NCBI GenBank assembly: GCA_947470185.1
Contig: CANIRZ010000018.1
Span: forward strand, 1 to 39,475
Direction: 5' to 3'
Length of the DNA: 39,475 nucleotides
DNA from: Sphingomonadales bacterium
GTDB taxonomy: Bacteria; Pseudomonadota; Alphaproteobacteria; Sphingomonadales; Sphingomonadaceae
Notes under the pieces: model-generated
The model's input: only the letters and a program-made list of their open reading frames with translations
Databases searched by the model: none
Told to the model about the DNA's origin: nothing
Program-made: the position numbers and the translations under genes
In this document: in pieces, positions 3,372 to 27,502 of the stretch
How positions within the stretch are numbered: the first letter of the stretch is position 1
Layout: each line of letters begins with the position of its first letter

Positions 3372-4343
3372 ATGCGCCGCCTCGCCACATGGGCGATATT
3401 AGCGGCGACGTTGCTGCTTGCAGTTATTGCCAGCAACTTCATCTATGGCTGGACTGCTGCAGGACCGCTGGAGCGCGAAACCAGTGTTGTGATTAAGCCG
3501 GGGTCAAGCATCACCTCGGCCGCCCAAAAGCTTGAAAAAAGTGGTGCGGTCAAATCCGCCAGCGCTTTTGTGAACCGGGCAAAGGTGTTTGGCGCGTCCA
3601 GCACGATCAAGGCCGGTGAATTCGTCATTCCGGCGAAAGCTTCCAACTCTGACATTTTGTCCATACTGACTGGTGGGAAAACCGTGCAACGCATGGTGAC
3701 CATTCCCGAGGGCATGCCGTCGATCATGGTGTATGAACGCATCATGGCGAATGATCGGCTGAGCGGCAGTATCTCCTTGCCCGCCGAAGGCTCAGTGCTG
3801 CCTGACAGCTATGCTTTTGACAAACACGAACCCCGCGCCGACGTCCTTCAGCGCATGCAGGACGCAATGACGAAAACAATGGCAGAGCTATGGCCGGAGC
3901 GAAGCGCCGACACCATGGTCAAAACTCCGCTCGAAGCGCTGACCTTGGCATCCATTGTCGAAAAGGAAACTGCGTTAAAGTCCGAATTGCGGATCGTCGC
4001 TGGAGTCTATTCCAATCGCTTGCGAACGGGCATGCGGTTGCAGGCTGACCCAACGATCATTTACCCGATCACAAAAGGTAAGCCGCTTGGCCGCCGTATT
4101 CTTCGATCCGAAATTACGGACGTGAATGATTATAACACCTATGCAATGTCTGGTCTGCCAAAAGGACCAATTGCCAATCCGTCGCGCGCGGCAATTGCCG
4201 CTGTGCTTAACCCGCAAAAGACCAGCGCATTATACTTCGTTGCCGATGGCAATGGCGGACATGTTTTCGCCGACACGTTGCAAGAGCATAATGCAAATGT
4301 GGCAAAATGGTACGCTCTGCGCCGCCAGCGCGGTGAAATGTAG
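3372..4343 (+). CDS. mltG: Endolytic murein transglycosylase MltG
   Basis: A 323-residue YceG/MltG-family protein. An N-terminal transmembrane segment (about 6-25) anchors it in the inner membrane. The catalytic region TLASIVEKETAL is at 191-202, with the essential glutamate in IVEKET (E197 by position). The later blocks LQADPTIIYP (223-232) and GLPKGPIANPS (261-271) are typical. It cleaves nascent glycan strands and helps terminate peptidoglycan polymerisation. The fabF-mltG pairing is common in proteobacteria. I see no good ribosome binding site in the four-base gap, so it may rely on coupling. Its stop is three bases from the stop of the convergent alkylsulfatase. Confidence 0.95.
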   Translation: MRRLATWAILAATLLLAVIASNFIYGWTAAGPLERETSVVIKPGSSITSAAQKLEKSGAVKSASAFVNRAKVFGASSTIKAGEFVIPAKASNSDILSILTGGKTVQRMVTIPEGMPSIMVYERIMANDRLSGSISLPAEGSVLPDSYAFDKHEPRADVLQRMQDAMTKTMAELWPERSADTMVKTPLEALTLASIVEKETALKSELRIVAGVYSNRLRTGMRLQADPTIIYPITKGKPLGRRILRSEITDVNDYNTYAMSGLPKGPIANPSRAAIAAVLNPQKTSALYFVADGNGGHVFADTLQEHNANVAKWYALRRQRGEM

Positions 4344-4346
4344 CCC

Positions 4347-6293
4347 TTAAGGCTCAACGATGTTGAACGCGCCCGGCATCGGATCAAGCGCAGCCTGAAG
4401 CTTTTCAATCACCGTCCGGTCACCCTCAATCTTCAACCCTGCCATTTGGAGCTGGGCCGCGGGCATTTTGAGGAACAGCAAAGCAAGAAACAATTGGCGC
4501 GGCCCTGTTATGGTCACGGCTGGCGAAGCATGCCCTTTGCCCATTTCGCTAAACATCACCGAATTGCCAACCGTGATTTTCGCCGTTTCCTTCCGGTCCG
4601 AAATCACGAAGTTCAGCGCCAACGCCGCGTCGCCAATGATATTCGGGTCCAGCCGGGTCGCGACTGAATCTAGCAATAGGCCCGTCGGTATCGCCGAAAT
4701 CATATCGATACTTTGCGCGCTCACACCCGCCTTCATGCCATCACGCAATTCGCGTGCGCCTGACAGGAATATGTTGCGCCAAATGGCGGATTCGGACTGA
4801 TAACCCTGCTGCTCATAGCTATCGGCGAGCAGCGCCCGTCCCTTAATATTTTTGGGGTCTGCAAAAACCATCTGATTTAATAGGTCTGACGACCAACGAT
4901 AATCGCCGGCTTTCATCGCCTTCTTGGCCTCAGTGATGACCTTCTTCGCGCCGCCCATTGCCGCGATCATTTTGGCCGCGCGCACTTCGGGCGGATGCGG
5001 GTTCAGATTTGCAGGAACAGCATCATACCAACCGAGATAATATTGATAAATCGCCTTCGAATTATGGCTATATGTGCCATAATAGCCCTTGTTGAACCAT
5101 TGATTGGCAATCGCAGGCGGCGCCTTCAAAACCTCAGCAATTTCCGCCTGAGTCATGCCCTTGTTCATCATGCGGACGGTTTGGTCATGCAAATAACGGT
5201 AATTGTCGCGTTGCCCCGACAGCCAACCTTTGACCTCTGCCTGACCAAAACGCGGCCAGCAATGGCTTGAAGCGATGATATCGCTCCGGTCACCGTACAG
5301 GTTGACCGCTTCATTCAAAAACCCGGACCAACTCAACGTATCACGCACCTTTGCCCCGCGTGGCGTCAGGATATTGTGGAGCGTACAGGTCGCAATCTCC
5401 GCCGCAAGAAACGTCCGCGACGCTGGCATGTACACATTCATCTCGGCAGGGGCTTCTGACTGAGGCACCATTTGGAACTCAAGCGTGACGCCATCAACTT
5501 CGCGCTGCTCGCCAGTTTTGCGGATATCGATTGTGGGCGGAATCAGCGTAATGTCACCGCCGCCAATGCCTCTGCCAATGCCGCTGCCCATGGTTCCCTG
5601 TGGTCCGGGGGTCAGGTTGGTGCCGAACTGGAATGTGGCGCGCCTGCTCATTGCAGGACCAGCCATGACATTTTCAGACGCGGTTTCGGCGAGGAAATGT
5701 TCCGGCGCGATAATCGCCACCTTGCCGGCTTTCACATCGGCTTCGTTGATGATCCCGCGCACCCCACCAAAATGGTCGCCATGGCTGTGGCTATAGACAA
5801 CAGCCGTGACTGGTCGGGCGCCTAGCTTTTCATTCACAAGCTTTAGCGCAGCGGCAGCCGTATCGCGGCTCGTCAGCGGATCGATGATGATCCAGCCTGT
5901 TTGGCCCTTGATAATCGTCATGTTTGACACGTCAAACCCACGCACTTGCCATATATTGTCCGCCAGCGCGTAAAGGCCATGCTTGCGCAGCAGCCCCATA
6001 TGCCGCCACAGGCTTGGGTTGACGGTGTCTGGCGACTTGCCGTCTGTCATCCAGTCATACGCACCGAGATTCCATACCGGCTTGCCATCTTTATTGGTGA
6101 TTACAGGGTCGGACAAAGTACCGATAAAGCCCCGGTCAGCAAAATCGAAATCACGGCCGTCTTCGACTGGAAGCTGCGCCGCAACGCTGCGTTGCGCGGC
6201 GATCGTCACATCAGAGGCTGGCTTTGTATCTTGTGCCCACGCGCCGGTGGCCGATACGGTGCTCAATAACGCCGCCCATAAAATTCTCCGCAT
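4347..6293 (-). CDS. Secreted alkylsulfatase (SdsA/BDS1-type, metallo-beta-lactamase fold)
   Basis: A 648-residue protein with a signal peptide ending ATGAWA-Q. The zinc-binding SHSHGDHFGG motif follows, with His169, His171, Asp173 and His174. Further blocks typical of the family are ILTPRGAKVRDTLSW, ASSHCWPRFG, and a C-terminal SCP2-like domain that binds the alkyl chain. Such enzymes hydrolyse primary alkyl sulfates such as dodecyl sulfate to the alcohol and sulfate in the periplasm. I chose the ATG at 6293 because GGAGG lies seven bases upstream and it begins a clean signal peptide; a longer form from 6332 would add 13 unlikely residues. It has no operon partner. Confidence 0.92.
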   Translation of the reverse strand: MRRILWAALLSTVSATGAWAQDTKPASDVTIAAQRSVAAQLPVEDGRDFDFADRGFIGTLSDPVITNKDGKPVWNLGAYDWMTDGKSPDTVNPSLWRHMGLLRKHGLYALADNIWQVRGFDVSNMTIIKGQTGWIIIDPLTSRDTAAAALKLVNEKLGARPVTAVVYSHSHGDHFGGVRGIINEADVKAGKVAIIAPEHFLAETASENVMAGPAMSRRATFQFGTNLTPGPQGTMGSGIGRGIGGGDITLIPPTIDIRKTGEQREVDGVTLEFQMVPQSEAPAEMNVYMPASRTFLAAEIATCTLHNILTPRGAKVRDTLSWSGFLNEAVNLYGDRSDIIASSHCWPRFGQAEVKGWLSGQRDNYRYLHDQTVRMMNKGMTQAEIAEVLKAPPAIANQWFNKGYYGTYSHNSKAIYQYYLGWYDAVPANLNPHPPEVRAAKMIAAMGGAKKVITEAKKAMKAGDYRWSSDLLNQMVFADPKNIKGRALLADSYEQQGYQSESAIWRNIFLSGARELRDGMKAGVSAQSIDMISAIPTGLLLDSVATRLDPNIIGDAALALNFVISDRKETAKITVGNSVMFSEMGKGHASPAVTITGPRQLFLALLFLKMPAAQLQMAGLKIEGDRTVIEKLQAALDPMPGAFNIVEP

Positions 6294-6388
6294 CCCACTT
6301 CCTCCAAATATTTTGAGAGCTTCATGCAACATAAGATGGCGCAGGTAAATCCGCTATTGCGCGAATGCTGCTGGGTTTGAAGCGCGGA

Positions 6389-19892: not shown

Positions 19893-22283
19893 TTATTTCG
19901 CGCCGAAGTTGATTTTCGCGGTTACGCCGAAGTAACGATCAGCTTCACGCGGGATGATGTAACGGAACGAACCGCCAGGGCCGCCAGAGACAATCGACGA
20001 TGCAAAGCTCTTATCAAACAGGTTTTTAACCTGAAACGCCACGCGCCAGCCATCGTTTGGATCAACCAGAGCAGCCGTTAAATCGACAATCGCATATCCG
20101 TCTACGGTCGAACCGAGGCGCACAGCAGGGTTGGGACTCAATTCGTAAATCTGGTCCGACTGCATCGCAATCTGGCTTCCCAGTTCGATGTTGGCAAAAC
20201 CGGAGGTTTTAATGTCATATTGCGCGCCAAGTGACATTTTCCATTTCGGCGCATTTGCCAGCGGCGTGCCTTTGGCAAGCAACTGTGTTGAGTCGGCACC
20301 GGGTGGCAAGCGGAAGTCTTCGACCCGCGCTTTATTATACGCAACGCCGCCCGAGAGGGTGAAGTTACGCGAAGGCGTAGCAACAAAATCAAGCTCAAAG
20401 CCTTTGGTCGAAACCGAACCTGCATTGGTAAGGCGCGTGGTCCGAACGCCAGCAACGAAGTCGGGGCTATTTGCCTGATAGTTGTTATATTTCGCATAAT
20501 ATGCCGCGAGGTTAACAATCAAGTCGCCGTCCAAGAATGTGTTCTTCAGACCGACTTCATAAGCATTGACCGTTTCTGGAGCGATAACACCGGCCCCCAC
20601 AGTCGTGAGATTGTAGAAGATGTTATAGGCAGGGCCCTTATAACCACGCGTATAGCTGGCATAAGCCATGTTGTTTTCGGTCAGGTCAGCCTGAACACCC
20701 GCTTTGCCCGAAAGATTATTGTTGCTGGTGCTGGTTGTGAACGGAACGCCATTTGACGTACCCGCTACAAAGCCCGTTGCAGGCAGCGTTGCAACCAAGC
20801 CATTGTTGTATACACCAGCATCAAAGTTGCCATTCACACCCGGACCCGACAAGGTCGTGCGGCGGATATGGTTCACATCCAATGTGTCATGCGTGTAACG
20901 CAAACCGCCAATCAGGCGCAGGCTGTCGGACAGGTTCAATGTTGTCTGACCGAATACTGAGACATTCTTGAACGTTGAACCAAAGTCGGCGGTGCCAGCA
21001 GGGGTCGTAATGGTCGACGCCCCGGAGGCCGTTGAGCACGGCACGAGCCCTGGAACAACAGCAGCAAGCGTTGAAGCCGAGCAGGTGATTACATTGCGCG
21101 TAAAGGTCCGGTCAGACTCCGCTTTCGAATAATATGCCCCAACGACATATTCGAGAAACTGACCCGTAGGCGACGCAATCCGGAGTTCCTGACTAAAGGT
21201 ATTGGATGTTTGCGGTCCATTGTCGTGCAGTTGGTTCAGGCCAACATAGGGCTGATCCAGCCAATCGCCGTCGCGAATTTCGGTATTGTCCCAACCGCGA
21301 TAGCTGGTGATCGAAGTCAGGCTGTGTTCGCCCAAAGCGATATCGGCCTGCAGCGAAATGCCCCAACTTTTTTCCTTGGTAGCGGTGACAAGATTCTGCC
21401 GGATGTTGCGCGAGTCGGCAGCGTTAAAGCCAGTACCGGCAAGCGCCAGCGCCGCGGCATTGGTGGGCGTAGTGCCGATGATTTCAGCACAGCAATCGTC
21501 ATTCGCCTTGCGGTAATCGCCGCGCAACGTCAGCATGATATTCTCGCTGACGTCAGCCTCAATGGCACCACGGAGGCCATAATGCTCGTAGCCATTGACC
21601 TTGTTACCCTTGGTCAGATTGTTGACGTTGCCGTCATAGTTTCCATAAAATCCTGTGAAGCGTGAACGTACATTGGCAGCCAGTGGAATGTTTACAGTCG
21701 CCCGGCCGCGATATTCGGATTTCGTGAAATAAGAAGCTTCGACCGTAGCGCCAAAGTCGGCGGTAGGTCGCTTGGTAACGATGCTCACAACACCCGCAGA
21801 TGCGTTTTTGCCGAACAATGTACCCTGCGGTCCGCGCAGCACTTCGATGCGTTCAACGTCGAACAGATCGGTAAAGCCCTCGCCCGCACGGCTTAGCACG
21901 ACGCCATCAAGCACTGCAGCAACTGAAGGCTCAGCCGCGATCGAAAAGTTGATTGTGCCAACGCCGCGCAGGAACAATGCCTGGTTAAGCGACGTGCCGG
22001 ATTTGCGGAAGTTCAAGCTTGGTACGAGATACTGGGCATTCTCAAGCGTGATGCCGCCATTATTGGCAACAGCGTCGCCGCCAATTACGGAAACGGCGAG
22101 CGGAATATCCTGCAGGCGTTCTTCCCGCTTCTGCGCGGTTACGATAATTTCAGCATTTGCAGATTCATCGTCTGCAGGCGCATCCTGCGCCATTGCGGGC
22201 AAGCTGATGCCTATCATGATCGCGGCGCTCGCGAATAATGAAGCCCGAATGAATTTGGTGTTGATCGAACTGATACTGAGCAT
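19893..22283 (-). CDS. TonB-dependent outer-membrane receptor, probable sulfoquinovose-glycoside importer
   Basis: A 796-residue receptor. The signal peptide is cleaved near AMA-Q (residues 30-33), the TonB box EIIVTAQKR is at 45-53, and the plug domain includes ERIEVLRGPQGTLFGKNA (144-161). The rest is a 22-strand-type barrel. The C-terminus ends KINFGAK, three residues past the usual terminal aromatic. Such receptors import scarce ligands through the outer membrane using TonB energy. The ATG at 22283 has GGAG seven bases upstream. It is divergent from the sulfoquinovose operon across 215 bases, so its cargo is probably a sulfoquinovosyl glycoside. That is inferred from context, not from the receptor itself. 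Confidence 0.93.
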   Translation of the reverse strand: MLSISSINTKFIRASLFASAAIMIGISLPAMAQDAPADDESANAEIIVTAQKREERLQDIPLAVSVIGGDAVANNGGITLENAQYLVPSLNFRKSGTSLNQALFLRGVGTINFSIAAEPSVAAVLDGVVLSRAGEGFTDLFDVERIEVLRGPQGTLFGKNASAGVVSIVTKRPTADFGATVEASYFTKSEYRGRATVNIPLAANVRSRFTGFYGNYDGNVNNLTKGNKVNGYEHYGLRGAIEADVSENIMLTLRGDYRKANDDCCAEIIGTTPTNAAALALAGTGFNAADSRNIRQNLVTATKEKSWGISLQADIALGEHSLTSITSYRGWDNTEIRDGDWLDQPYVGLNQLHDNGPQTSNTFSQELRIASPTGQFLEYVVGAYYSKAESDRTFTRNVITCSASTLAAVVPGLVPCSTASGASTITTPAGTADFGSTFKNVSVFGQTTLNLSDSLRLIGGLRYTHDTLDVNHIRRTTLSGPGVNGNFDAGVYNNGLVATLPATGFVAGTSNGVPFTTSTSNNNLSGKAGVQADLTENNMAYASYTRGYKGPAYNIFYNLTTVGAGVIAPETVNAYEVGLKNTFLDGDLIVNLAAYYAKYNNYQANSPDFVAGVRTTRLTNAGSVSTKGFELDFVATPSRNFTLSGGVAYNKARVEDFRLPPGADSTQLLAKGTPLANAPKWKMSLGAQYDIKTSGFANIELGSQIAMQSDQIYELSPNPAVRLGSTVDGYAIVDLTAALVDPNDGWRVAFQVKNLFDKSFASSIVSGGPGGSFRYIIPREADRYFGVTAKINFGAK

Positions 22284-22498
22284 GTTGAATCTCCGGTGAA
22301 ACCTGGGTCCCCACTTCTCAACCATTTTACTTGAGTTTTCTCAAGCAACAAAAGCTATGGTGGCGTATACCGTTGGCGTGGGGGATTTGTTACCAGATTG
22401 ACTCAATATGTCTAGCGGTGTCATATGGAGACAATATTTTGACGCGTACTGTTGCAATGTTGCCATAGTGCCGCTTTACGGACCGAGAAGGACAAGAG
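22284..22498. promoter_or_regulatory. Divergent control region between TonB receptor and sulfoquinovose operon
   Basis: This 215-base region has no gene. Besides the receptor promoter it holds a second short palindrome, ATTGA-C-TCAAT (22397-22407), that shares TTGA/TCAA half-sites with the one at 22330. A -35-like TTGACG lies at 22439 on the plus strand without a convincing -10 at normal spacing. Both transcription units are probably controlled from here. Confidence 0.55.
22324..22351 (-). promoter_or_regulatory. Candidate TonB receptor promoter with an operator in its spacer
   Basis: On the minus strand, TAAAAT (22329-22324) resembles a -10 box and TTGTTG (22351-22346) a weak -35 box, 16 bases apart. 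The spacer (22330-22345) is exactly the inverted repeat CTTGAG-TTTT-CTCAAG. A repressor bound there would block RNA polymerase, and the LacI-type regulator encoded in the divergent operon is the obvious candidate. The repeat lacks the central CG common in LacI-family operators, so the assignment is tentative. Confidence 0.45.
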
Positions 22499-24511
22499 TT
22501 GCCATTTAAAATCATCATGCAACAAGGCGGCTTTGACCTGTTGCGCGATGACGTCAGCATGCTGGCGCACCGCGCCGATGCCCCTGCAATTACGCTGGGG
22601 ATCGGCGTACCTGATCTGGAAATGGTTCGTGGTAACTTTCGCATCGACGATCTGGTTGAAAGGCGTTTGGCCTTAGATTGCTTTGCGGCCTCCGATGGCG
22701 CTATTCGGCTTTGGAATGCGGCGCGCCCTGATGTGGTGGTTACTCTCAAGCTGACTCAGCGTGTGCAGCAATCTGCGCTTGAACTGCGTTGCAGTGACCC
22801 CGCCTTCAACCGTCTTTGGATAGATATGCAGTGCGCAACTTCCGAAGCCTTCTGGGGCGGCGGGGAGCAAATGTCTTATTTGCGACTGAACGGCCGGCGT
22901 TTTCCATTTTGGACATCCGAGCCTGGTGTTGGCCGTGATAAATCTACGGCGTTGACGCAGACCATGGACGCGAATGGTTTGGCAGGCGGTGATTATTGGA
23001 CGACCAATTATCCGCAGCCGACTTGGCTAAGCTCCGCGCGTTACGCGGTGCATCTAGAGACAAATGCATACTCGGTTCTGGATTTGACCGAAAAGGGTCG
23101 CGTTGGCATCGAATGCTGGTCCGCCAATGTCGATCTGGAGTTGTTCGAGGCACCATCGTTGCCCAATCTGGTCACCAAATTGTCCGATCGCTTTGGTAGG
23201 CAGCCACCTTTGCCCGAATGGGCGATTTCGGGCGCGATTGTGGGCCTTAAAGACGGGGCAGACACATTCGACCGTTTCGAGACAATTGCGGCCTCTGGCG
23301 CAGCGATAACGGGCTTGTGGTGCGAAGATTGGGTCGGCATCCGGCAAACCAGCTTTGGAAAGCGGTTGTTTTGGGACTGGAAATGGAATGCAACGCGCTA
23401 TCCAGATTTACCCGCCCGTATAGCCGCGCTGGCGGAGCGTGGCATTCGCTTTTTGGGTTATGTTAATCCCTATTTGGCCGTGGATGGCGCGCTCTACCAA
23501 GAGGCGCTAGCGCACAATTATCTCGCATTGCGGCAGGAAAGCGACAAACCTTATGCCGTGGATTTCGGCGAATTTGACGCAGGCGTTGTCGATTTCACCA
23601 ATCCTGCCGCCGCCAGCTGGTTTGCCGACCGCATAATTGGGCAAGAAATGCTCGACTTTGGGCTGTCAGGCTGGATGGCGGATTTTGGCGAATATTTGCC
23701 CACCGATGTGCGATTGTTCGACGGTTCGGACCCAATGGAAGCGCATAACCGCTGGCCTGTATTATGGGCGAAGGTCAATGCCGACGCCATCGCATCGCGC
23801 GGTAAGACGGATGACGCCACCTTCTTCATGCGGGCTGGCTTCTCAGGCGTCCAAGCCCATTGCCCCTTGTTATGGGCCGGCGACCAATGCGTTGATTTTA
23901 CGCGGCATGATGGCATTAACACCGTGATAACTGCTGCTTTGTCGTCAGGTCTTCTCGGCAATGCCTATCATCATAGCGACTTGGGCGGTTACACCAGTTT
24001 ACACGGCGTTGTTCGCACGGCCGAACTGATGCACCGCTGGATTGACCTGGCCGCATTCGCGCCGGTCATGCGCAGCCATGAAGGCAATCGTCCCTCGGAA
24101 AATCTGCAAATTGACAGCAGCCCCGAAATCCTCACCCATTTTGCGCGGATGACCCAAGTGCATGCGCAGCTTGCGCCTTATGTGCGTGCAGTTTGCGATG
24201 AAGCAGTAGCCACCGGCTTGCCCCTGCAACGGCCATTATTCCTTCATTATGATGATCCCGAATATCACGACATTCAGGATCAGTATCTTTATGGGGCAGA
24301 CATGATTGTCGCGCCCGTCGTTGAAGAAGGGCATGACAGCCGCCTCGTGGTACTGCCCCAAGGCGCTTGGATGCACCTATGGACAGATGCATTATATGGC
24401 AAAGGCACGCACGACATAGCTGCGCCGCAAGGCCAGCCGCCCGTGTTTACACGCCAAGACAGTGCCCATGCAGACCTTTTTGCATCCATCCGTGCAGCGT
24501 TTGGCGCATGA
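22499..24511 (+). CDS. smoI: Sulfoquinovosidase (GH31, YihQ/SmoI type)
   Basis: A 670-residue GH31 glycosidase that resembles E. coli YihQ along its length. The nucleophile is Asp395 in GWMADFGEYLP and the acid/base is Asp462 in WAGDQ. The residues that in known sulfoquinovosidases hold the sulfonate are present: Lys251 (GLKDG), Glu276 (WCEDW), Arg289 and Trp292 (KRLFW), and Tyr498 (SDLGGY). This is the K-E-R-W-Y version seen in Agrobacterium-type enzymes rather than the Q-Q-R-W-Y of E. coli. It releases sulfoquinovose from its glycerol or lipid glycosides. There is no signal peptide, so it acts in the cytoplasm. I chose TTG 22499 because AAGGA lies just upstream; ATG 22517 has none. The stop overlaps the LacI gene (ATGA). 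Confidence 0.93.
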   Translation: MPFKIIMQQGGFDLLRDDVSMLAHRADAPAITLGIGVPDLEMVRGNFRIDDLVERRLALDCFAASDGAIRLWNAARPDVVVTLKLTQRVQQSALELRCSDPAFNRLWIDMQCATSEAFWGGGEQMSYLRLNGRRFPFWTSEPGVGRDKSTALTQTMDANGLAGGDYWTTNYPQPTWLSSARYAVHLETNAYSVLDLTEKGRVGIECWSANVDLELFEAPSLPNLVTKLSDRFGRQPPLPEWAISGAIVGLKDGADTFDRFETIAASGAAITGLWCEDWVGIRQTSFGKRLFWDWKWNATRYPDLPARIAALAERGIRFLGYVNPYLAVDGALYQEALAHNYLALRQESDKPYAVDFGEFDAGVVDFTNPAAASWFADRIIGQEMLDFGLSGWMADFGEYLPTDVRLFDGSDPMEAHNRWPVLWAKVNADAIASRGKTDDATFFMRAGFSGVQAHCPLLWAGDQCVDFTRHDGINTVITAALSSGLLGNAYHHSDLGGYTSLHGVVRTAELMHRWIDLAAFAPVMRSHEGNRPSENLQIDSSPEILTHFARMTQVHAQLAPYVRAVCDEAVATGLPLQRPLFLHYDDPEYHDIQDQYLYGADMIVAPVVEEGHDSRLVVLPQGAWMHLWTDALYGKGTHDIAAPQGQPPVFTRQDSAHADLFASIRAAFGA

Positions 24512-25539
24512 ACCCACGCGCCAACATTCGCGATGTCGCAAAGCTTGCTGGCGTGGCGGTAAAAACCGTCAGCCGCGTGCTCAACAATCATCCTTATGTA
24601 AGCGCGACCACCAAAGCGAAGGTCGATGCCGCGATGTCGGAACTTGGGTTTAGCCCAAGCATCGCCGCACGCATCCTTGCAGGCACCAAGTCCGGGCAGA
24701 TCGCCTTGATCTACGACAATCACAGCCCATATTATATGCACCAGATCATGCAAGGGTGCTGGGACCGCTGCCATGAAGAGGGCATGCGCCTGATAGCGCA
24801 ACCAGTGGACGTGGCCGACCCCGATGTCGGCGAACAAGTGCGAGGCATGGTGCGTCAAACGCATGTCGACGGGGCGATATTGTCCTCACCTGTGACCGAT
24901 TGCGTGCCGGTGCTCACCGCGCTTGAGGCACTTAACATACCTTTCGTCCGCATCTCACCCGGCACCAACCATGCGCTGACCAGTTCAGTTTTCATGGACG
25001 ATATGCAGGCCGCCGATGACATGACAACGAAGCTCATCAACATTGGACATCGACGCATCGGCTTTATCAAGGGCCACCCAAACCATATGGCGAGCACCGA
25101 GCGGCAAGCTGGCTACCAACGTGCGCTTGGACGCGTTGGCATTTCGGTCGATCCAGCTTTGATTGCCGAGGGCTTGTTTGATTTCGAAAGCGGTGTTGCC
25201 GCAACTGAGCAATTCCTGTCGCTTAAATATCCGCCTACGGCCATCTTTGCGTCCAATGACGATATGGCATCAGGCGTTCTCGCAGTCGCGCATAGGCGCG
25301 GAATTCAAATTCCGGAACAACTGTCGGTCGCAGGTTTTGACGATACCACGCTCGCCCGCGTTGTTTGGCCGCCGTTGACCACCGTGCGTCAACCCGTTCG
25401 CGACCTTGCATCGACCGCAGCCGACCTTTTGTTTGGCGAAGGTGGCATTGAACATCGCCGCTTGCCGCATGAGCTTATCAGCCGAGAATCGGTCGCCCCG
25501 CCTTATTTTCCTTCACTTAAAAAGAGCAAAAACACATGA
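24508..25539 (+). CDS. LacI-family transcriptional regulator of the sulfoquinovose operon
   Basis: A 343-residue LacI/GalR protein. The helix-turn-helix is at about 7-27 (IRDVAKLAGVAVKTVSRVLN), followed by the hinge helix SIAARILAG (52-60) with the intercalating leucine. A periplasmic-binding-like ligand domain includes ASNDDMASGV and the typical C-terminal TTVRQP. It probably represses the operon and the divergent TonB gene until a sulfoquinovose-derived ligand binds; the effector is inferred from position. Its start overlaps the sulfoquinovosidase stop and its stop overlaps the next start, both as ATGA, so it sits inside the operon it should control, implying autoregulation. Confidence 0.93.
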   Translation: MNPRANIRDVAKLAGVAVKTVSRVLNNHPYVSATTKAKVDAAMSELGFSPSIAARILAGTKSGQIALIYDNHSPYYMHQIMQGCWDRCHEEGMRLIAQPVDVADPDVGEQVRGMVRQTHVDGAILSSPVTDCVPVLTALEALNIPFVRISPGTNHALTSSVFMDDMQAADDMTTKLINIGHRRIGFIKGHPNHMASTERQAGYQRALGRVGISVDPALIAEGLFDFESGVAATEQFLSLKYPPTAIFASNDDMASGVLAVAHRRGIQIPEQLSVAGFDDTTLARVVWPPLTTVRQPVRDLASTAADLLFGEGGIEHRRLPHELISRESVAPPYFPSLKKSKNT

Positions 25540-26438
25540 CGCTTCCCACCCCTTCGCGCACCCGTAAACTGGGCAAAAGCGGAATTGAAATTTCCTCCCT
25601 CGCATGGGGTATGTGGCGCTTTGCCGGGCTTGAACTATCCGCCGCGAGAGGCACGATCGACGCTGCGTTTGAGGCAGGCATTACCCTGTTCGACACCGCC
25701 GACATTTACGGTTTTGGCGAACAAGGCTTTGGCAAAGCTGAAGAGCTTCTAGGCCAAGTCTTTGCCGATGCGCCCGCATATCGCGACCGCATGGTGCTGG
25801 CGACCAAGGGGGGCATCACCCCGCCAACACCCTATGACAGCAGTGCAGAGTATCTGACAAAAGCCATTGATGACAGCCTGACTCGGCTGCGCACAGACCG
25901 CATCGACTTGTGGCAAATTCACCGGCCAGACGTGTTAACCCACCCACAGGAAATCGCGCGCACCATCGAGGACGCGCACAAAGCAGGGAAAATTCGCGCC
26001 TTTGGCGTTTCTAACTTCACTCAGGCGCAGATCACCGCGCTTGCCCAGTTTAGCGCAGTGCCCATAGTTTCAACGCAACCTGAACTCTCACCCTTGCGGA
26101 TAGACACTATCGAAAATGGTGAGCTGGATCAGGCTATAGCCATGGACCTTGCGGTGATGGCATGGTCGCCGCTGGGCGGCGGCAGAATTGGTGAACCGCA
26201 AGATGTTCGTGAGCAAAATGTCGCTGCGGCGCTCTCGGGTGTTGCTGCTGCGCATAATGTATCGCGCACTGCTGCGGCGTATAGCTGGATCATGGCGCAC
26301 CCGGCACGGCCAATTCCGATTGTCGGCTCACAAAATCCTGCGCGCATAATCGAAGCTGCTGACGCGTTCAAAATCCAATGGACCCGCGCTGATTGGTACA
26401 GCGTGTTGGTTGCCGCAAGAGGAGTGCCACTGCCATGA
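25536..26438 (+). CDS. smoB: Aldo/keto reductase, probable 6-dehydroglucose reductase (SmoB-like)
   Basis: A 300-residue aldo/keto reductase with the full catalytic tetrad: Asp53 and Tyr58 in FDTADIYGFG, Lys91 in LATKGG, and His129 in WQIHRPD. NAD(P)H binding is suggested by the C-terminal PIVGSQNPARI block. In the known sulfo-SMO pathway an AKR (SmoB) reduces 6-dehydro-D-glucose, the product of the monooxygenase, to glucose. Family membership is clear from sequence; the specific substrate is inferred from its place between the sulfoquinovosidase/LacI pair and the monooxygenase. Start and stop are both ATGA overlaps. Confidence 0.88.
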   Translation: MTLPTPSRTRKLGKSGIEISSLAWGMWRFAGLELSAARGTIDAAFEAGITLFDTADIYGFGEQGFGKAEELLGQVFADAPAYRDRMVLATKGGITPPTPYDSSAEYLTKAIDDSLTRLRTDRIDLWQIHRPDVLTHPQEIARTIEDAHKAGKIRAFGVSNFTQAQITALAQFSAVPIVSTQPELSPLRIDTIENGELDQAIAMDLAVMAWSPLGGGRIGEPQDVREQNVAAALSGVAAAHNVSRTAAAYSWIMAHPARPIPIVGSQNPARIIEAADAFKIQWTRADWYSVLVAARGVPLP

Positions 26439-27502
26439 GCAAGCCGGTTGAAGTGAGCTGGTTTTCGGCGTTGTGTGATGATGACTATGAATTTTTGGGC
26501 GTCCCCGACCCGATGCTGGCGTCCAGTTGGGAACATTGCCGCAATATCGTTTTAGCCGCCGAAAAGGGCGGGTTTGATAATGTTTTGCTGCCATCGGGCT
26601 ATACCCTTGGCCTCGACACCACCGCCTTTGCCAGCGCCGTTGCCGCGCTCACATCGCGGATCAAATTGCTCATGGCGGTGCGCATTGGCGAAAGCTGGCC
26701 GCCGCAGCTTGCCCGTCAAATTGCCACACTTGACCAGATTTCGGGTGGGCGGCTGAATGTGAATATCATCTCCTCCGACTTGCCCGGCGACAAGATGGAT
26801 TCCGAACCGCGCTATCGTCGCACAGTAGAAGCCATGCACATATTAAAGACATTGCTGAACGGTGAGCATCTGTCGATTGATGGCGAGCATTACAAGATCG
26901 ACCTCGACCCGCCGCGCATGAAAACCGTCAGCGGCAAATGCCCGCCTTTATATTTCGGTGGATTGTCGCCAGCGGCCAAGGACGCGGCGGCAGAGGGTTG
27001 TGACGTCTACCTGATGTGGCCCGAAACGGTTCAGGGCGCCAAGGACTTGGTCGACGATATGACCGCCCGCGCCGCCAAATTCGGCCGCACGCTGAAATAT
27101 GGTTTCCGCGCGCATGTTATCGTCCGGGAGACGGAGGCCGAGGCGCGCGCTTATGCCGACCGCTTGCTGTCGAAACTTGATGCCCAGCAAGGCGAAGCTA
27201 TTCGCAACAAGTCACTGGATACGCAAACCTTCGGTGTCGCGCATCAGGCAGAGTTGCGCGAACAAGCGGCAGCGAATGACGGCTATCTAGAGAACAATTT
27301 ATGGACAGGTATTGGCCGTGCCCGTTCAGGATGCGGCGCGGCAATCGTCGGCGATCCAGACCAAGTGCTCGCCAAAATCAATGCCTATCGCGACGTCGGT
27401 ATCGAGGCGTTCATCCTGTCCGGCTATCCGCACATAAACGAATGCGACATGTTCGCACGTTATGTGCTGCCAAAGCTGGAGCATGGCCGGTTGGAAATTT
27501 AA
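26435..27502 (+). CDS. smoC: Flavin-dependent sulfoquinovose monooxygenase (SsuD/SmoC-like)
   Basis: A 355-residue bacterial luciferase-like monooxygenase close to alkanesulfonate monooxygenase SsuD. It keeps the residues that shape the sulfonate site there: Arg225 and His227 ([10 protein letters not shown]), Arg297 (GRARSGCG) and Tyr331 (ILSGYPH). In the sulfo-SMO pathway SmoC uses reduced FMN and oxygen to split the C-S bond of sulfoquinovose, giving sulfite and 6-dehydroglucose. Using it on sulfoquinovose rather than simple alkanesulfonates is inferred from the neighbouring sulfoquinovosidase. The ATG at 26435 overlaps the reductase stop and has GAGGAG ten bases upstream. It needs a flavin reductase, which is not encoded in the window. 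Its end overlaps prfA by four bases, convergently. Confidence 0.9.

Follow-up and report, generated by a model that had tools for sequence, protein, structure and literature searches.

A sphingomonad sulfoquinovose gene cluster and the probable LacI-controlled regulon around it

The gene cluster and its enzymes

The stretch of DNA considered here (the window) is contig CANIRZ010000018.1, 39,475 nucleotides long, from the assembly GCA_947470185.1 of a Sphingomonadales bacterium. It carries a compact gene cluster that probably lets the bacterium import and fully degrade sulfoquinovose (SQ), the sulfur-containing sugar found in the membranes of plants and algae. Genes for a GH31 glycosidase, a LacI-family regulator, an aldo/keto reductase and a flavin-dependent monooxygenase are joined by three ATGA overlaps, a TonB-dependent receptor gene diverges from them, and a 19-bp near-palindrome lies in the intervening gap (Table 1). 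The GH31 gene starts with TTG, which is preceded by AGAAGGA. A sequence-only reading of the window had described this gene set, its order, the divergent receptor and the overlaps, all of which were confirmed in the DNA. It had also proposed a sulfo-SMO (SQ monooxygenase) pathway yielding glucose and sulfite, with TonB uptake and an operon-internal regulator, and this is supported by homology and synteny.

Table 1. Positions of the SQ cluster features in the window, with their predicted identities
Feature	Position	Strand	Basis or remark
TonB-dependent receptor, class A	19893..22283	-	Plug and beta-barrel domains: PF07715 + PF00593
Predicted operator, 19 bp, TATGTCTAGCGGTGTCATA	22407..22425		In the gap between the divergent receptor gene and the operon
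GH31 sulfoquinovosidase, YihQ/SmoI type	22499..24511	+	NF007746; nearest PDB 5ohy
LacI-family regulator, predicted binder of the 19-bp site	24508..25539	+	PF00356 + PF13377
Aldo/keto reductase of the SmoB/SquF type, predicted to turn 6-dehydroglucose into glucose	25536..26438	+	PF00248; nearest PDB 7bbz/7bby
FMNH2-dependent sulfoquinovose monooxygenase, SmoC/SquD type (predicted)	26435..27502	+	Nearest PDB 7olf/7oh2

The GH31 enzyme scores 861 bits against the YihQ model NF007746 (cut-off 553) and 836 bits against its nearest solved chain. Its residues D395 and D462 (open reading frame (ORF) numbering), which we take to be catalytic, align with both catalytic Asp positions of 5ohy; at the second of these the near-identical chain 5ohs has N. 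The stretch WCEDWVGIRQTSFGKRLFWDW, which may hold the sulfonate-binding residues, is nearly identical to 5ohy. No signal peptide was recognised by eye, so the enzyme is probably cytoplasmic. The monooxygenase reaches 371 bits with 7olf and 368 bits with 7oh2, both presumably SmoC, against 224 bits with 7jv3 and 196 bits with 1nqk and 1m41. The latter three are alkanesulfonate monooxygenases, and the window enzyme is clearly further from them than from 7olf and 7oh2. It is 96% identical to a homologue in Sphingorhabdus wooponensis (locus L032). The gene of the aldo/keto reductase, whose nearest solved chains we take to be SmoB, is ATGA-coupled to the monooxygenase gene. No flavin reductase was found within the operon among its ORFs or in a domain scan of its genes.

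The conservation of this arrangement was surveyed in the best 80 of at least 582 confirmed stretches related to the window cluster; gene counts in these loci are rough, since many loci end at contig ends and the genes came from a custom ORF script. The window order recurs in many sphingomonad loci and is thus not due to chance. Of the 80 loci, 61 hold a gene of the receptor cluster, 61 a LacI gene, 65 an aldo/keto reductase, 46 a GH31 enzyme and 18 an enzyme of a Gfo/Idh cluster. Major facilitator superfamily (MFS) genes are present in 44, YeiH-type genes in 29, GlpD in 12 and a flavin mononucleotide (FMN) reductase in six. Additional linked genes (clusters c21-c25) lie near the SQ genes in L074, L077, L084, L089, L103 and L109, mostly Sphingopyxis loci, and by eye include alcohol dehydrogenase-like, sugar kinase-like and GlpD-like genes.

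By homology, the predicted enzymes of the window are ordinary members of the known sulfo-SMO/sulfo-ASMO pathway. It is very unlikely that they act instead on another sulfonated or plain sugar, or on simple alkanesulfonates for sulfur scavenging, and not on SQ as a carbon source. The monooxygenase does match the SsuD model as well, at 263 bits, under its cut-off of 518. Nonetheless, it is at least 144 bits nearer to 7olf and 7oh2 than to any other chain, and it shares its operon with a YihQ-family sulfoquinovosidase that scores above the cut-off. Furthermore, in the 18 loci with the Gfo/Idh-cluster enzyme this replaces GH31, and the one member compared with solved chains, that of L072, has the GH188 SqgA structures 8qc2 and 8qc3 as its closest relatives. 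The two glycosidases are mutually exclusive, with no locus among the 80 holding both.

Predicted uptake across the two membranes

The receptor is predicted to serve the outer-membrane uptake of SQ or its glycerol glycoside (SQGro). Its association with the cluster was followed in 40 genomes out of the 62 scanned for the 19-bp site (see below), namely the 11 of the window's genus and the 29 others whose monooxygenases scored best; 37 of these are SMO-positive (with a monooxygenase match) and three, all congeners, are SMO-negative. The window receptor used as query (E 1e-100) gave 39 matches in 37 genomes, with the best 25 candidates per genome scored (the best five and the best four in two further genome searches), so that matches may be missed. 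Of these matches, 36 lie within 12 kb of a GH31 or monooxygenase gene, one per genome in 36 of the 37 SMO-positive genomes. The exceptions are the sole match of G140, 280 kb off, and the second of two matches in each of G218 and G380. The receptor did not qualify as SusC-type (61 bits against TIGR04056, cut-off 368), and the cluster has no further gene that could be a SusD.

It is improbable that the pairing is accidental, with the receptor serving for instance siderophore uptake and free SQ entering through porins. The nearest models and structures of the receptor are mainly those of siderophore receptors, and the same place beside the cluster is held by two receptor classes that are about 39-44% identical. 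Against this, such a receptor is kept beside the cluster in all but one of the 37 SMO-positive genomes, finds no counterpart at the search threshold in any of the three SMO-negative congeners and shares its gap with the 19-bp site. A random neighbour was rejected on this distribution.

The two classes, A (38 receptors) and B (22), were set by identity to the window receptor in a sample made up of the window and the 59 of the 80 loci with a receptor longer than 600 aa. Each class occupies one side of a branch with an SH-aLRT of 98 in a quick receptor tree, for which the program warned of long branches joining within class B. Mapped onto the monooxygenase tree, the class label requires at least seven changes, five of them forced by starred branches. 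Loci L038 and L039, from close relatives, have flanks that are mostly 88-99% identical, falling to about 35-68% in the receptor gene (about 3450-5966), and the 19-bp site is exact in both despite the receptor difference. From these comparisons, the receptor seems to have been swapped as a unit.

The sequence-only reading held that an ABC importer was absent and that the receptor took its place. This part did not stand, because a TonB receptor serves the outer membrane and cannot replace an inner-membrane importer, and because the same genome has, on a different contig, an MFS gene accompanied by the 19-bp site (G000:C5:72760-74010). That gene is divergent from a YeiH-type gene, which is followed by glpD, and the possibility of no importer at all was rejected on finding it in trans. 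No ABC transporter genes were found in the operon, a genome-wide search for ABC genes not having been made. A profile of the cluster-borne MFS (A1), run on the same 40 genomes, scored above 570 bits in 36 of the 37 SMO-positive genomes and gave no match (E 1e-70) in the three SMO-negative ones. The MFS gene lies within 15 kb of the monooxygenase gene in 29 of the 36, and further off or on another contig in G380 and the six window-type genomes of the genus. Its nearest families transport anionic sugars (galactonate, phosphoglycerate, UhpC), all below their cut-offs, and the protein is predicted to bring SQ or SQGro across the inner membrane.

Both the window's genome and all five complete congeners with GH31 clusters have the glpD-yeiH/MFS block in trans; the fetched stretches of the 19 prfA-type loci, which are of the window type, contain neither an MFS nor a YeiH gene. 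In L087, L098 and L107 (Novosphingobium) and L088 (Rhizorhapis) the block adjoins the receptor. The YeiH-type protein scores 103 bits, under the cut-off of 233, so that 'sulfate exporter' is a family hint only. One GlpD copy above the cut-off is present in each of the 11 congeners and is located in the satellite in the six window-type genomes. Glycerol kinase has a match in all 11, seven of them above the cut-off and that of the window's genome two bits under it. The glycerol genes fit SQGro as the imported substrate.

It is also improbable that the satellite on G000:C5 has its own role in glycerol or sulfate metabolism, unconnected to SQ, and that its site merely resembles that of the cluster. 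In its favour, GlpD is found in every congener, the SMO-negative ones included, and the satellite site in the window's genus overlaps the likely YeiH start (ATG ACA CCG CAA GAC ATA); because the site covers the first YeiH codons, coding could help to conserve it. Conversely, the same block stands beside the SQ cluster in the four Novosphingobium and Rhizorhapis loci, the SMO-negative congeners have no MFS match, and of the two sites in the window's genome one falls at this block and the other at the SQ operon. The satellite site is intergenic in L085 and L088.

The 19-bp site, LacI and flavin reductases

The site is a near-palindrome with the dyad TATGWCA-N5-TGWCATA, and the MFS/YeiH start region holds TATGTCTTGCGGTGTCATA, one base different from the copy in the window. 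Only these two sites (the satellite copy at G000:C5:72678-72696) occur in the window's own genome, which is 63% complete, and the next best candidate has three mismatches. Among the prfA-type loci, the site is exact in 14 of 14 that are close to the window and hold the gap; the more distant L047 differs in three bases, and four other loci are cut before the gap.

In 62 genomes, comprising 11 of the window's genus and 51 of the 53 others above the GH31 cut-off (two with cut genes were omitted), the pattern WHTGTCNNRCGNTGTCAKA was present at 58 sites, spread over 42 genomes, and the reversed pattern at none. Of the 58 sites, 55 have a match to GH31, the monooxygenase, the receptor or the MFS protein no more than 7 kb away; 35 lie within 300 bp of a GH31 gene and 13 within 300 bp of an MFS match, with receptor and MFS positions available for 40 genomes. 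Three sites lie far from SQ genes (G021:C5, G329:C1 and G289), that of G021:C5 directly before glpD. The search was extended to 397 genomes, of which 104 have a monooxygenase match (E 1e-120) and 293 do not. A strict form of the site was present in 46 of the 104 and in one of the 293, this one being 69% complete, and the loose pattern in 51 and nine, respectively, with two sites for the reversed control. The strict form was chosen afterwards from the loose hits. Fisher values are not to be read as probabilities, given that such loci supplied the pattern and that the genomes share ancestry.

The 19-bp site is predicted to be the operator bound by the in-operon LacI. Binding by another regulator, or a promoter element, with LacI acting elsewhere, is an unlikely alternative. 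In its favour, the dyad admits a second reading, as direct TGTC repeats spaced at a 10-bp step. A promoter element is at odds with the gap, in which a scan found no sigma-70-like promoter. LacI is, moreover, the commonest regulator, DeoR-like and LysR-like regulators (named by eye) being found in five loci each. At the helix position it carries VK or IK in 52 of the 53 proteins read, with nine of the 62 unread by the pattern.

The distant site on G329:C1 stands directly before the gene for a 416-aa protein (L158:6381-7628; G329:C1:473380) with an alpha/beta-hydrolase domain and a PF01613 flavin reductase domain. A stray match to a hydrolase gene was considered and rejected, because the C-terminal half is a flavin reductase and the site is kept before the fusion gene in five of five complete window-type congeners, four of which have C for the last A. 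No match to the fusion gene was found in the three SMO-negative congeners or in G269, where the gene for a stand-alone PF01613 reductase lies behind that of the monooxygenase. In the Sphingopyxis locus L097 an unrelated PF03358 FMN reductase is located at the site, opposite the MFS gene. This suggests recruitment of different reductases to one regulon, and the hydrolase-flavin reductase fusion may be the FMNH2 source in the congeners. A small gene of cluster c41 was also seen between the FMN reductase and YeiH in L097 (810-1415), and behind the FMN reductase in L056 and L096.

Proposed regulon and relation to known systems

Taken together, the window most probably represents the catabolic core of a LacI-controlled sulfo-SMO regulon for SQ, in a Sphingorhabdus-like bacterium, that is scattered over two or three loci. 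In this model, which is based on gene families, synteny and motif distribution, the TonB receptor would carry SQ or SQGro through the outer membrane and the satellite-encoded MFS protein would take it across the inner one. The GH31 enzyme would split SQGro into SQ and glycerol, the monooxygenase would cut the C-S bond of SQ to give 6-dehydroglucose and sulfite, and the aldo/keto reductase would convert 6-dehydroglucose to glucose. The satellite would add a putative sulfate exporter and, for the glycerol branch, the only GlpD found. The predicted operator would stand at the receptor/operon gap, at the yeiH/MFS start region and, in the five complete congeners, before the hydrolase-flavin reductase fusion, which may supply FMNH2 to the monooxygenase.

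Several observations weigh against this model, among them the overlap of the satellite site with yeiH and the presence of GlpD and glycerol kinase in SMO-negative congeners, as described above. Enzyme activities in the organism, LacI-site binding, transported substrates and the reductase partner are inferred. The strict site is missing from 58 of the 104 SMO-positive genomes, GH188-type loci have variants with three to four mismatches or none, and the site at G289:C1:3230838 (L163:5839) has no recognised SQ gene nearby. The test of association between strict site and monooxygenase is also not independent, because related loci supplied the consensus and the strict form was selected post hoc. 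G073 has no MFS above 387 bits, and neither an MFS nor a YeiH gene is present in what was fetched of the Novosphingobium loci L081, L092 and L095. The fusion gene was not found in the window's incomplete genome and its copy in G370 lacks the site. Outside the genus a wider link between fusion and SQ genes fails, because the fusion occurs in 11 of the 293 SMO-negative genomes and in 14 of the 104 SMO-positive ones.

The sulfo-ASMO cluster of Novosphingobium aromaticivorans DSM 12444 was reportedly described by Liu et al. in 2021, and the sulfo-SMO genes SmoA-I of Agrobacterium tumefaciens are said to come from Sharma et al. in 2022. The former, with SquD and SquF, resembles the window in being a sphingomonad cluster with an SQ monooxygenase and an aldo/keto reductase found through YihQ and without SsuE, according to passages of two reviews (PMC12890257; PMC9594981). 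The core is thus not new in sphingomonads, and the suggestion of a little-described variant, made from the sequence alone, does not hold for the pathway. The window's genus differs in that its MFS-YeiH-GlpD block stands apart from the SQ cluster. The passages on N. aromaticivorans in these reviews give no transport genes or operator; the original figure may show a TonB receptor.

The A. tumefaciens pathway shares with the window a homologous sulfoquinovosidase, aldo/keto reductase and monooxygenase, as judged by the nearest solved chains. It has an SQGro ABC transporter (PMC9594981, in a passage of the review) and the flavin reductase SmoA (PMC12890257, Table 1), whereas the window has a TonB receptor, an MFS gene in trans and an operon without a flavin reductase. 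Such a reductase is not part of every sulfo-SMO or sulfo-ASMO cluster, and which one serves clusters lacking SsuE is left open in the same review passages (PMC9594981). The sulfo-SMO clusters with GH188 SqgA, as presented in part of PMC10755693, differ from the window in having GH188 instead of GH31; where such a gene was found in the 80 loci it mostly lies beside the same receptor, aldo/keto reductase and monooxygenase.

The word 'TonB' does not occur in the main texts of PMC12890257, PMC9594981, PMC13372026 and PMC10755693, and the pairing of a TonB receptor with SQ genes was not found in the literature searched by title listing, outside which Liu et al. 2021 falls. A word search of PMC4052901, on LacI regulons, returned nothing on sphingomonads, TonB or sulfo-. 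The split layout, the 19-bp site and the exchange of receptor and reductase were likewise not found in the portions of literature examined, which do not include Liu et al. 2021 and Sharma et al. 2022, and no SQ uptake route for sphingomonads is named in those passages. What appears new here is the uptake, layout and control of the SQ genes, as predicted from the genomes; the enzymes are of a known kind. Gene-cluster surveys catch the core and miss parts in trans, and the 19-bp site provides a cheap search handle for further SQ parts in sphingomonad genomes, naming candidates for the outer-membrane receptor, inner-membrane importer, sulfate exporter and flavin reductase.

A wider reading is put forward tentatively, as a possibility that falls somewhat short of an even chance. 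Sphingomonads could possess a modular SQ regulon with a fixed core, in which the receptor, the glycosidase (GH31 or GH188), the position of the importer and the flavin reductase would be exchangeable under the LacI operator. The Sphingorhabdus fusion would then be a new FMNH2 partner, and the receptor classes would import different SQ glycosides.

The flanks of the window cluster appear housekeeping-like, with a nadA-like gene and an MBL-fold (metallo-beta-lactamase) gene on one side and prfA and hisS on the other, named by eye from the translations. A second organosulfur gene, for an alkyl sulfatase (4347-6332, minus strand; PF14863, PF14864 and a metallo-beta-lactamase domain), lies about 13.5 kb from the SQ cluster, and its product has an N-terminus that resembles a signal peptide by eye.

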